This document shows, piece by piece, positions 14,806-29,140 of a stretch of 35,548 nt of DNA. Numbering within the stretch: position 1 is the first letter of the stretch; each line of letters opens with the position of its first letter. The translations under genes and the position numbers were made by a program. Below the pieces are notes generated by a model that saw only the letters and a program-made list of their open reading frames with translations, did not search any database and was not told the DNA's origin. The stretch comes from a virus. The DNA lies in the IMG/VR virus record IMGVR_UViG_3300042445_001660, positions 1 through 35,548 of that record; one strand, given 5' to 3'.

Positions 14806-14825
14806 AAAATTTGTGAAAAAATATA

Positions 14826-14854
14826 TTTACATCGGTCCGGTTTCCGTTTATAAT
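14826..14854 (+). promoter_or_regulatory. Early promoter of the zincin-VWA gene, leaderless geometry
   Basis: TTTACA (14826-14831), 17 bp, TATAAT (14849-14854), 6 bp, then ATG 14861. The spacer is nearly identical to that of the promoter at 28287. An upstream A/T block (TATGAAAATTTGTGAAAAAA) is shared with the promoters at 17312 and 28287 and may act as an UP element. Confidence 0.85.
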
Positions 14855-14860
14855 TCTGTC

Positions 14861-17275
14861 ATGCCGATTGGAACTACTGTTCAGAAACCACGCGAAGCGC
14901 ACCAAAGCATGCTCGCGAAACTCCTTGCTAGGGAGAACATTACCGTCCGTTTCGGTAATTATCAAACCGCGTTCTTTGAGCCAAAAACTCGCGTGTTGGG
15001 CATGCCGATGTGGAACGCTGAAAGCAAGCAAGTTTCGGACCTGCTTGTTGGCCACGAAGTTGGCCATGCGCTTTACACGCCGCAAGACGGAATCGAAAAG
15101 TTTCAGAAGCGCTTTCCTGACATTCCGTTTGATATTTGCAATGTGATCGAAGACGTCCGCATTGAGCGAATGATTCAGAGTACTTACCCTGGGCTTATCC
15201 ATTCCTTCCGTGAAGGATACCGCTCCTTCGTTGCAAAGGACCTTTTCAAAATCAACGGTGTCGATCTCGCCAAGCTGTCGGTCGCGGACCGCATTAACCT
15301 GCATGCTAAGGTTGGTCACCTTGTGGATGTTCCGCTTTCTGCTGAGGAACGCGTGATTTACGAATCTGCTTATGCAGCCGAAAGCTTCGATGATGTTTTG
15401 GAAATTTGTCAGCGGCTTTACAATCTTGTCGAAAAATCTCAGCAGTCTCAAAGCGAGGATGATTCCCCGCAGCCCAACAAGAGTGGAGACAAGCAAGAAC
15501 AGATCGGTCAATCCGGTGCATCTAGGCAGAAGCAACCTAGTGAACGTGCCGAAAAAACTGAATCGGAAAAATCTGGCGCTGATTCTAAATCTGATGCCGC
15601 CGACTCTGACTCTTCGGAATCCGATTCCAATAAGTCCGCCCTAAAGTCAAATACTAAAGGTGATAAGTCGGAATCCAAGTCGGGCCAAGCCGAAGAATCT
15701 AAGTCGGGCCAAGCCGAAGACACTGATGATTCTGGCGATGGTGAAGATGGCGATGATAATCATGTACCAAGCCCCGATGACAAGAATTCATCGGACGATC
15801 AATCCTCTAATGCAGAGAGTCAATATTCTCCGAAAATGTCTGACAACTTTTCGGCTACTCATCAGCGCGAATTTGACAAAGGTACTGCACAAATGCAAGA
15901 GCGCATTAATACTAATCAGGTTAATGTTCCAACGAGCGCACAAATGCTCCGTGCTGTTGCGCCTCTTAAGAAGGTGTTGGATTCTCGTCGTGCAGACTCA
16001 AAGTACGACGAAATTATGTCCAATCCTCAACTCACCGAGGCATATGGAAAGTTCAAAGATTCAACCAAAAAGCATGTGCAGGTCCTCATCAAGGAATTTG
16101 AACGTCGCAAGGCTGCATATCAATACAGTCGCGCGCGGCGCTCAACAAACGGCACGCTTGACGTAAACCGCTTGCATTCATACAAGTACGAAGATCAAAT
16201 TTTCCGTAGCGTGACTACTTTAGCCGAAGCTAAAAATCATGGCATGGCATTTTTCATCGACTATAGCGGGTCTATGGTTCGCACTCTCGGATCGGTCATT
16301 GAGCAGACTATTCAGCTTGTGACCTTCTGTAAGGCAGTGAACATCCCGTTCGTTGTGTATGGCTTCACTAGCCGCTGTGAAGATACCGGTTCTTGTGAGC
16401 CGGTATCGTATGCTCCGGGTATGACGATGGACTTTGACAACGTGAACATCTTTGAGATTCTCAATTCTTCACTGAAGAAGATTGAATTTGACAAGTGCAT
16501 CAAGGAAATGTACGCAATGTCCTGGTATCGCCGCTCGCATGGTACTTACTCATACCACCGCAGCACAACGTATGTTCTCTTTGCGTCAAACTACGAAGTC
16601 TTCGGTGGAACTCCTCTTGTCGAGACGGTTGTTATTGCAAGCGAATTGGTTAAGCGATTCCGCTCGGCGCACAACATCCAGAAGATGAGCACGACGTTCC
16701 TTACTGACGGTGACCCTTGCTTTATCCGCATGCATGATAATAATATCGACAGGCTTTTTCGTAAGAATACTGAGGGTTGGGGTAACGGTTATGAAATGCG
16801 GTTCGGTAACGAAATCATTAATTGGACTCATCAATATCCTAAGAACGCGATGGCGGCGGCCATCCGCGCCTTCCGCACGATTACTCAGAGCACTGTGATT
16901 GGCTACTTCATTGCTGACAATCAGAAATCGTTTAAGTCTCACTGTATTGATTCTATCCGCAATGTTGATCGTAAGATGATCAGCTGGACTGATGGTGCCG
17001 AAAAGTTCAAGGGTTGCTTTCGTGAAATTCGTGCAAACGACGGTGTTCTTACCGTTAAGAACGGCGGAGGATATGATATGTTCTTTGCATTTGATGGCCG
17101 CGACGGTCTTACAATTAAGGACGACGAAGACTCTGACTTTACAACCAAGATGGACATGGACAACCTTGACACTGTAGCTGCTCATAATAAGCTTGCTAAG
17201 GAATTTACGAAATTCTCCTCTTCTAAGAAGTCCTCGCGGGTATTCGTTCACAAATTTGCCGAAATGATCAGCTAA
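14861..17275 (+). CDS. Large early protein with HExxH zincin motif, acidic linker and VWA domain (CobT-like)
   Basis: An 804-residue protein. The N-terminal domain contains HEVGH (residues 65-69) followed by NVIEDVRIE (94-102), the layout of zinc-dependent peptidases in which a downstream Glu is the third ligand. Residues ~190-330 are a Ser/Asp/Glu/Lys-rich low-complexity linker with an internal 24-bp duplication. The C-terminal part has a von Willebrand A domain with the MIDAS motif DYSGS (Asp467, Ser469, Ser471). The closest general plan is the CobT/VWA partner of MoxR/CobS AAA+ ATPases, and exactly such an ATPase follows. A longer frame from 14813 would overlap the promoter, so ATG 14861 is chosen. 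It could be a protease, a metal-dependent chaperone or a host-complex remodeller; activity is inferred only. Confidence 0.8.
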   Translation: MPIGTTVQKPREAHQSMLAKLLARENITVRFGNYQTAFFEPKTRVLGMPMWNAESKQVSDLLVGHEVGHALYTPQDGIEKFQKRFPDIPFDICNVIEDVRIERMIQSTYPGLIHSFREGYRSFVAKDLFKINGVDLAKLSVADRINLHAKVGHLVDVPLSAEERVIYESAYAAESFDDVLEICQRLYNLVEKSQQSQSEDDSPQPNKSGDKQEQIGQSGASRQKQPSERAEKTESEKSGADSKSDAADSDSSESDSNKSALKSNTKGDKSESKSGQAEESKSGQAEDTDDSGDGEDGDDNHVPSPDDKNSSDDQSSNAESQYSPKMSDNFSATHQREFDKGTAQMQERINTNQVNVPTSAQMLRAVAPLKKVLDSRRADSKYDEIMSNPQLTEAYGKFKDSTKKHVQVLIKEFERRKAAYQYSRARRSTNGTLDVNRLHSYKYEDQIFRSVTTLAEAKNHGMAFFIDYSGSMVRTLGSVIEQTIQLVTFCKAVNIPFVVYGFTSRCEDTGSCEPVSYAPGMTMDFDNVNIFEILNSSLKKIEFDKCIKEMYAMSWYRRSHGTYSYHRSTTYVLFASNYEVFGGTPLVETVVIASELVKRFRSAHNIQKMSTTFLTDGDPCFIRMHDNNIDRLFRKNTEGWGNGYEMRFGNEIINWTHQYPKNAMAAAIRAFRTITQSTVIGYFIADNQKSFKSHCIDSIRNVDRKMISWTDGAEKFKGCFREIRANDGVLTVKNGGGYDMFFAFDGRDGLTIKDDEDSDFTTKMDMDNLDTVAAHNKLAKEFTKFSSSKKSSRVFVHKFAEMIS
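15674..15721 (+). repeat. 24-bp tandem duplication in the acidic linker
   Basis: Two adjacent 24-bp copies (15674-15697 and 15698-15721) differ at two positions and encode SKSGQAEE and SKSGQAED. They lie in frame inside the low-complexity linker, so copy number could change without breaking the gene. Confidence 0.85.
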
Positions 17276-28286: not shown

Positions 28287-28315
28287 TTTACATCGGGTAG
28301 GTTTCCGTTTATAAT
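28287..28315 (+). promoter_or_regulatory. Early promoter of the 28.3-29 kb small-gene cluster
   Basis: TTTACA (28287-28292), 17 bp, TATAAT (28310-28315), with a spacer nearly identical to the promoter at 14826 and the same upstream GTGAAAATTTGTGAAAAAA block. The ATG at 28343 leaves a leader of about 21 nt with AAGGAAA. Confidence 0.87.
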
Positions 28316-28342: not shown

Positions 28343-28528
28343 ATGACTGAAGCTGCTAAAATCGCCCGCAAGAATCTGATCGCCGAAATCGCCAAACGCC
28401 ACGCCGCTGAGCGCGAGTTCGTAAAATCTGTCTCCGTCAAGGAGTCGACCGGCACCACTGCCGAACATGACACAATCATTGCTGAAGAATTTGAACGCCT
28501 CGAAAAGGCCAGCGTGATCCTCAGCTAA
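28343..28528 (+). CDS. Small charged helical early protein
   Basis: A 61-residue Ala/Glu/Lys-rich, probably fully helical protein (KIARKNLIAEIAKRHAAERE near the start), the first gene behind a strong early promoter. No family recognised. Such small proteins at the head of early units often target host enzymes, but nothing in the sequence shows which. Confidence 0.65.
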   Translation: MTEAAKIARKNLIAEIAKRHAAEREFVKSVSVKESTGTTAEHDTIIAEEFERLEKASVILS

Positions 28529-28560: not shown

Positions 28561-28716
28561 ATGTCCATTTACATTATTGCTGCTTCCTTTATCGGCTATC
28601 TTTTTCCGGAGTTTCTTAGAATGATTGCTCCTCGGAATTACACCGTCCCTTGGCTAATGAAAGCGCAGTGCGCTTTCATTGGAGCTGCGGTTGCACATTA
28701 TCTTCTTACTCACTAA
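28561..28716 (+). CDS. Small membrane protein, two predicted helices
   Basis: A 51-residue ORF (MSIYIIAASFIGYLFPEF at the start, FIGAAVAHYLLTH at the end) with two hydrophobic segments joined by a short polar loop. It lies 32 bp after the previous gene in the same early unit. A perfect 11-bp inverted repeat is embedded in its coding sequence. No family recognised; being next to the prepilin-like gene suggests an envelope role. Confidence 0.6.
   Translation: MSIYIIAASFIGYLFPEFLRMIAPRNYTVPWLMKAQCAFIGAAVAHYLLTH
28656..28680 (+). other. Perfect inverted repeat inside the small membrane gene
   Basis: AATGAAAGCGC (28656-28666) and GCGCTTTCATT (28670-28680) form an 11-bp stem with a 3-nt loop AGT. 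It is followed by GG rather than T residues, so a terminator is unlikely. It may protect or process the mRNA, or be a protein-binding site. Confidence 0.7.
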
Positions 28717-28788
28717 TCAATACGAGCGGCAATCATCAGCGAGCTGCGTGCTGAACTTCATGCCGCGGTCGACAACATCGAAATCTAA
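28717..28788 (+). pseudogene. Possible gene remnant lacking a start codon
   Basis: Directly after the membrane protein stop, the same frame stays open for 23 codons reading SIRAAIISELRAELHAAVDN and ending IEI-stop. The composition (helical, Ala/Glu-rich) looks coding, yet there is no ATG, GTG or TTG at its head. It may be the 3' end of a deleted gene or a readthrough extension; a chance open frame is also possible. Confidence 0.35.
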
Positions 28789-28803: not shown

Positions 28804-28992
28804 ATGAAAACCAAAGGATTCACCTTCATCGAACTTCTTATCACGCTTGTGATTGCCGCCATCGAACTTCTTATCACTCTTGTGATTGCCGCCATCGAAC
28901 TTCTTATCACTCTTGTGATTGCCGCCATCACCCTCATTATAAAGTTCTTCCGTCCAAAAACAATCGTTCCTAACATTGAGGTTCAAAATTGA
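28804..28992 (+). CDS. Prepilin-like small protein with tandemly repeated hydrophobic segment
   Basis: A 62-residue protein. The N-terminus MKTKG-FTFIELL has every feature of a class III (type IV prepilin) signal: short basic leader, Gly5 before the cleavage site, Phe as +1 and Glu as +5, then a hydrophobic helix. The segment IELLITLVIAA is present three times in direct succession, from an in-frame 33-bp repeat, followed by TLIIKFFRP and a short polar tail. No globular pilin head is present. It could be cleaved by the host prepilin peptidase and enter or poison type IV pilus or type II secretion assembly; this is inference. It lies in the early unit started at 28287. Confidence 0.78.
   Translation: MKTKGFTFIELLITLVIAAIELLITLVIAAIELLITLVIAAITLIIKFFRPKTIVPNIEVQN
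28828..28926 (+). repeat. Three in-frame 33-bp tandem repeats in the prepilin-like gene
   Basis: Units 28828-28860, 28861-28893 and 28894-28926 differ by a single base (ACG versus ACT in the first). Near-identity at DNA level, including synonymous positions, indicates recent expansion by slippage or recombination. Confidence 0.95.
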
Positions 28993-28993
28993 T

Positions 28994-29140
28994 ATGAAAC
29001 GCCTTGCACAAAATTCCCTTGAGATGCGAAACCTTACCCGTCATCGCATGCCATCTCCTACGTTTTCTTTCAAAGACCGTAAGAAGGAAATGAAGCGCAA
29101 GGCTTGCCGTAAGAAAGACTATAATTATGTATCCAAGTAA
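28994..29140 (+). CDS. Small very basic protein
   Basis: A 48-residue ORF starting 1 bp after the prepilin-like gene, rich in Lys and Arg (MKRLAQNSLEMRNLTRHRM, then FKDRKKEMKRKACRKKDY). No family recognised. Its charge suggests nucleic acid binding. The next ORF starts inside its last 14 bp. Confidence 0.55.
   Translation: MKRLAQNSLEMRNLTRHRMPSPTFSFKDRKKEMKRKACRKKDYNYVSK

Follow-up and report, generated by a model that had tools for sequence, protein, structure and literature searches.

Assembly of type IV pili depends on a contact at the N-terminus of the pilins, in which the N-terminal amine of one subunit meets Glu5 of the next. Changes at Glu5 reduce or abolish assembly (PMC5207764). A globular head is not needed for a pilin to enter this pathway. 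In Geobacter, the headless pilin PilA-N, which has F1 and E5, is processed and assembled (PMC6201914). Phage proteins that act on the assembly machinery have also been described. One is PfsE, a small membrane protein that blocks pili at the level of PilC; Tip and Aqs1 have PilB as their target (PMC8764522, PMC11436027). In the literature searched, no functional study of phage mini-prepilins was found. Here, we describe such a gene in a virus contig of 35,548 nucleotides (IMG/VR record IMGVR_UViG_3300042445_001660), the whole of which is referred to below as the window.

A headless prepilin-like protein with a tandem helix repeat

The gene and its parts are as follows.

28804..28992, + strand: prepilin-like protein of 62 aa (PF07963 and TIGR02532 above cut-off; syntenic homologues at loci L084 and L005)
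28804..28863, + strand: class III signal and helix start, MKTKG/FTFIELL... (PF07963, TIGR02532, codon comparison)
28827..28929, + strand: 33-bp tandem array of 3.1 copies, encoding IELLITLVIAA three times (Tandem Repeats Finder; copy comparison)

The reading frame runs from the ATG at 28804 to the TGA at 28992 and translates as MKTKGFTFIELLITLVIAAIELLITLVIAAIELLITLVIAAITLIIKFFRPKTIVPNIEVQN, with the layout MKTKG/FTFIELLITLVIAA-IELLITLVIAA-IELLITLVIAA-ITLIIKFFRPKTIVPNIEVQN. The MKTKG-FTFIELL signal described in an earlier note on this DNA, with Gly-1, Phe+1 and Glu+5, is present in the product. It scores above the curated cut-offs of both PF07963 (N_methyl; E 1.3e-6, 28.1 bits, cut-off 21.2) and TIGR02532 (NCBIfam IV_pilin_GFxxxE; 4e-6, 26.4 bits, cut-off 16.3). 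A basic n-region and a hydrophobic helix complete the features of a class III signal of the prepilin type. By sequence, the product is thus a prepilin-type substrate for which cleavage is predicted, as the earlier note had proposed. A chance likeness to the prepilin signal is ruled out by the curated cut-offs together with the conservation described below. The full-length pilin and pseudopilin equivalogs of NCBIfam all scored far under their cut-offs. The AlphaFold2 model (single-sequence, mean pLDDT 84) consists of one helix, residues 8-49, followed by a short unstructured tail. The C-terminal globular head that characterizes type IV pilins and type II pseudopilins is therefore absent from this single-helix model of the 62-aa protein, in keeping with the earlier reading. 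The tail ITLIIKFFRPKTIVPNIEVQN had no match in 11 related phage records other than a 100%-identical contig. Antisense coding of the array was also considered, since the reverse frames of the window hold open reading frames. It was rejected because every reverse frame of L084 and L005 carries 2 to 7 stops, which identifies the plus frame as the coding frame.

The three in-frame copies of IELLITLVIAA were confirmed by translation and by Tandem Repeats Finder, which places a 33-bp array at 28827-28929 (3.1 copies, 98% matches). Its score of 199 is the highest of any tandem repeat in the window, the runner-up scoring 93. Copies 1 and 2 differ by one base, which is silent, and the triplication is recent because the copies are nearly identical. 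The same array is present in a second IMG/VR contig, 3300042997_000708. Since its sequence matches the window with 100% identity across 16.3 kb, it could be the same population assembled again, and its confirmation of the array is weak. In the mature protein, glutamates are found at +5, +16 and +27. Eleven residues make three helical turns, and the rotation between successive glutamates is only ~20 degrees. The additional +5-like glutamates predicted earlier thus lie on nearly one face of the helix. Elsewhere in the window, a 24-bp tandem repeat (15671-15720) lies in the Ser/Glu-rich part of the 820-aa ORF 14813-17275.

Relatives, selection and the gene neighborhood

Relatives were gathered by a search with the neighboring primase-like gene, which yielded 80 loci. 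The two lineages nearest the window hold a short prepilin-like gene in the same slot, L084:564-824 (86 aa) and L005:9287-9538 (83 aa). Each of these has a single copy of the segment and encodes a second, C-terminal helix, DVDY...ETARSQRRMA..RQNDL.QRRL. In the next tier of relatives (L006, L007, L008 and L014), the flanking small genes are kept and the prepilin-like gene is missing. Most simply, the gene therefore entered the lineage inside a pre-existing cluster. At the promoter, the 3' end of L004 and the 5' end of L084, both from a single sample, share an exact overlap of 55 bases. The primase, promoter and cluster are therefore probably contiguous in L084, and L004 and L084 are probably one phage of ~190 kb. 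By eye, a short N_methyl protein of L120 (3300048912_000049, 813-1100) has a middle part, GAVKG..D...Y...N..VETR, that resembles L005 (GAVKGVSDADVDYSFINPQVETAR), and it may be a distant homologue.

Loss of the signal motif in relatives had been set beforehand as an outcome that would count against the proposal. Both syntenic relatives retain KGFTL[IV]ELL, an outcome in favor of the proposal. Between the window and L084, codons T7, I9, L11, L12 and I13 differ only silently, and there is one replacement, F8L. Between L084 and L005, dN is 0.31 and dS is 1.62 over 81 codons, giving a dN/dS of ~0.2, a rough value for a short gene with dS above 1. The signal thus persists while its codons change, which shows the ancestral gene to be genuine and selected, and codon comparison indicates that the signal is maintained at the protein level. 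From about residue 20 onward, no alignment of the window protein to L084 is possible, though the flanking DNA is 86-89% identical. There, the coiled tail of the relatives has been lost or replaced and the helix segment tripled. The search for homologues with one or more repeat copies that the earlier note had suggested gave single-copy forms (L084, L005); a two-copy form was found in a separate phage lineage (L126), and three copies were found only in the window lineage. The idea that the triplication is the functional essence of the protein was not supported. With single copies in the syntenic relatives, the repeat was added late and is optional, and it may be neutral in character. The triplication is recent and private to the window phage, with one independent parallel.

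This parallel is found in L126, which surfaced in a general survey, ahead of any repeat search. Its protein starts with MNKGFTLIELLICCAIGG-IELLICCAIGG, with the same 11-residue segment duplicated in frame and exactly, at 33/33 nt. In L139, a close relative with 91% identity across the neighboring SPFH region, the segment occurs once. L126 belongs to a family (with L103, L127, L139, L141 and L142) that resembles the window protein in its prepilin signal and its length of 63-74 aa. L126 differs in having two copies instead of three, a different, Cys-containing tail, and a separate phage lineage. Scans of the viral collection for duplications of 11 residues and of 7-16 residues, the latter with AAA fixed as the Lys codon, returned only L126 and the window lineage, both with 11 residues, and no third case. 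Among the matches listed, duplications number 2 in short and 0 in long prepilin-like genes, which is not significant (Fisher p 0.19, from rounded counts). In both duplications, the junction carries a 4-bp repeat that stems from Ile codons spaced 11 residues apart. That the same length was duplicated twice independently at the same place may reflect selection, as 11 residues make three turns and rotate the Glu by ~20 degrees. It may equally reflect mutation bias through the 4-bp junction repeats, and two cases cannot decide between these.

The gene lies in a cluster of small genes with the following features.

28287..28315, + strand: sigma-70 type promoter TTTACA-17-TATAAT of the small-gene cluster (11/12 consensus bases; same position in L084, L005 and L008)
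28343..28528, + strand: conserved 61-aa gene, the first of the cluster, function not assigned (also in L084, L005, L006, L007, L008 and L014)
28561..28716, + strand: 51-aa hydrophobic protein (80% identical copy in L084 only)
28717..28788, + strand: apparent 3'-end remnant of another coding sequence, SIRAAIISELRAELHAAVDNIEI-stop (not at that place in L084 and L005)
28994..29140, + strand: next conserved small gene, MKRLAQNSLEMRNL...KACRKKDYNYVSK (relatives directly or shortly downstream in L084, L005, L006, L008 and L014)

The earlier note had called the product an early protein, and the strong early-type promoter upstream, at 28287-28315, agrees with this. It fits early transcription by the host polymerase. 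Near-identical members of the TTTACA-17-TATAAT family are found in the window at 14826, 17312, 24245, 28287 and 33821, and these are likely the early promoters of the phage. Those at 14826, 17312 and 28287 lie behind similar AT-rich GTGAAAATTTGTGAAAAAA-like leaders. The annotated start of the 14813 ORF is probably wrong because it overlaps one of these promoters. The segment 28717-28788, between two genes, looks like the end of a deleted gene; it had no match among the 11 related phage records other than the 100%-identical contig. The conserved small genes 28343-28528 (ARKNLIAEIA...) and 28994-29140 (KDRKK..KACR) flank the prepilin slot in all near relatives, and the small membrane genes that occupy this slot vary from phage to phage.

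The window comes from a T4-like phage, with structural and replication genes of the T4 type. Its major capsid protein shares 58% identity, across 97% of the length, with the capsid protein of Pelagibacter phage HTVC008M, and the closest match of the primase-like neighbor is Phage C48C1 of the Kyanoviridae (43%). The only relative of this primase in the genome collection is in a Sphingobacteriales MAG (47% identity). This MAG was dropped as a candidate host, as it has no N_methyl match and the KGFTLIELL pattern occurs in 0/395 genomes of its phylum. Nor, for the same reasons, was it usable as a cellular control for how often such duplications occur. No peptidase A24 (PF01478) was detected in 14 phage records, several of which are fragments, so maturation would depend on the host.

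Short prepilin-like genes in other phages

A KGFTLIELL scan of viral contigs found at least 83 reading frames. Among the matches listed, about two dozen are complete and shorter than 110 residues, too short for a classical pilin, and one family among them comes from contigs that are relatives of Synechococcus T4-like phages (L103, L127, L139, L141, L142 and L126). Comparable short proteins are encoded by cultured phages of Vibrio, Aeromonas, Delftia and Acinetobacter: VH7D AGB07037.1 and ValKK3 (67 aa each), Aes508_086 (75 aa), PhiW-14 gp119 (44 aa), AhP_Mru1 CDS0313 (37 aa) and Acibel004_97 (107 aa, annotated as PilE-like). In PHROGs, such proteins are spread over several small families, nearly all without a function. 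phrog_13280 matches L084 with an E of 4.3e-7 over residues 1-41 only and L005 with 1e-5, covering ~40 residues, and the window protein, at E 0.29, falls outside this family. The L084 and L091 proteins had no tblastn matches in cultured phages, and PADLOC gave no match. In their tails, the short phage proteins have nothing in common. An SPFH/Band_7 gene lies beside or near the short N_methyl gene in Aes508 (L237), AhP_Mru1 (L239), L091/L092, L126, L139 and L103, and a functional partnership in these unrelated phages is possible. Phage mini-prepilins are thus a recurrent kind of protein, carried in cultured phages as hypothetical or pilin-like. Scattered across many phages, they probably tamper with host pili or secretion.

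Possible functions and known systems

The reading we favor, with a probability of about 0.5, is that the protein is a host-processed decoy prepilin that, soon after infection begins, would jam the assembly of type IV pili or of the type II secretion system. Host sigma-70 RNA polymerase would transcribe the gene early from the 28287 promoter, and the product would insert into the inner membrane. There, the host prepilin peptidase would cut after Gly-1 and expose Phe+1 and Glu+5, the features by which pilins dock at the base of a growing filament. The headless product could then compete with true pilins or pseudopilins at the assembly platform. Assembly of the type IV pilus or the type II secretion pseudopilus would stall during infection, leading to receptor loss or host takeover. 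In the window phage, the tandem duplication would give an over-long helix of 42 residues with Glu +5, +16 and +27 on nearly one face. This could strengthen docking or jam the groove, or may equally be neutral. That the protein blocks pili and that it acts in superinfection exclusion, both proposed in the earlier note, is conjectural. The decoy reading is suggested by the signal above curated cut-offs, which both syntenic relatives retain while codons change silently (dN/dS 0.31/1.62 between L084 and L005), by the promoter conserved in place, by the lack of PF01478 in the 14 phage records and by the comparable short proteins of other phages. The need for Glu5 in efficient docking (PMC5207764) and the precedents of PfsE, Tip and Aqs1 speak for it as well. 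Against it stand the unrelated tails of the short phage proteins, the absence of the gene from the next-closest relatives, where it is therefore dispensable, and a tripled hydrophobic stretch that exceeds one ordinary membrane span. The SPFH neighbor in several phages may also point to membrane stress or lysis instead. The wider proposal, that lytic phages of several hosts repeatedly evolved headless prepilin decoys, matured by the host peptidase into assembly poisons, and that lengthening the helix by 11 residues is a repeatable strengthening reached independently at least twice, is speculative and rather improbable.

A doubtful but possible alternative is that only the ancestral mini-prepilin is functional, and that the window carries a decaying or drifting allele which lost its coiled tail and in which slippage or microhomology produced a neutral triplication, in frame by luck. 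Such decay would account for the failure to align with L084 past about residue 20 within 86-89% identical flanks, for the near-identical and hence recent copies, for the 4-bp junction matches read from the sequences of both known duplications, and for the coding remnant upstream as a sign of local rearrangement. However, frame, start and signal are intact, most signal codons have changed only silently, and the same 11-residue duplication occurs in a second phage. The genes near SPFH/Band_7 genes in Aes508, AhP_Mru1, L091/L092 and cyanophage-like contigs, with the antiholin-type gene rI two genes further along in Aes508, raise another explanation. The protein might control lysis or membrane stress, borrow the prepilin signal as a membrane anchor and have nothing to do with filaments. 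An anchor has no need of the exact G-F-T-x-x-E cleavage and docking motif that is under selection, and SPFH is not adjacent in VH7D or the window lineage, which makes this quite improbable. It is very unlikely that the protein is a true minor pilin, built into host pili to alter their surface or dynamics instead of blocking them. F1 and E5 are retained, as in the headless Geobacter PilA-N that is processed and assembled (PMC6201914), and among PDB sequences L084 comes closest to geopilin domain 1 proteins, though not significantly (E 0.039 and 0.096). An over-long helix with three Glu would misfit a standard filament core, and the short tails have no likeness to a surface-exposed head.

If mini-prepilins are indeed host-matured decoys, they would represent a new route by which lytic phages shut down pili or type II secretion, unlike the binding of PilB or PilC described to date, and they would lend themselves naturally to probing how pilins dock. 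For examining the roles of the membrane helix and Glu+5, ready-made one-, two- and three-copy variants exist in the tandem helix repeats.

Among phage proteins, the closest in kind are the short N_methyl proteins of phrog_13280, phrog_11263, phrog_10597 and phrog_3433. Like the window protein, they have 37-107 aa, a prepilin signal, one hydrophobic helix and no classical head. Those of cultured phages differ in their unrelated tails and in having no tandem helix repeat, and the window protein matches the cultured-phage families only weakly (E 0.075-0.29). PfsE of Pf4, which binds PilC, and the PilB binders Tip and Aqs1 are likewise small phage proteins, and theirs is an action on type IV pilus assembly (PMC8764522, PMC11436027). 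Unlike the window protein, PfsE has ~30 aa with a YAWGW motif and is not presented as a prepilin, and Tip and Aqs1 act on the ATPase. The likeness would at most be one of function, and no homology is claimed. Geobacter PilA-N (geopilin domain 1) shares the headless prepilin form that keeps F1 and E5 (PMC6201914), whereas it is cellular, has PilA-C as a partner and contains no repeat, and its sequence match to L084 is not significant.
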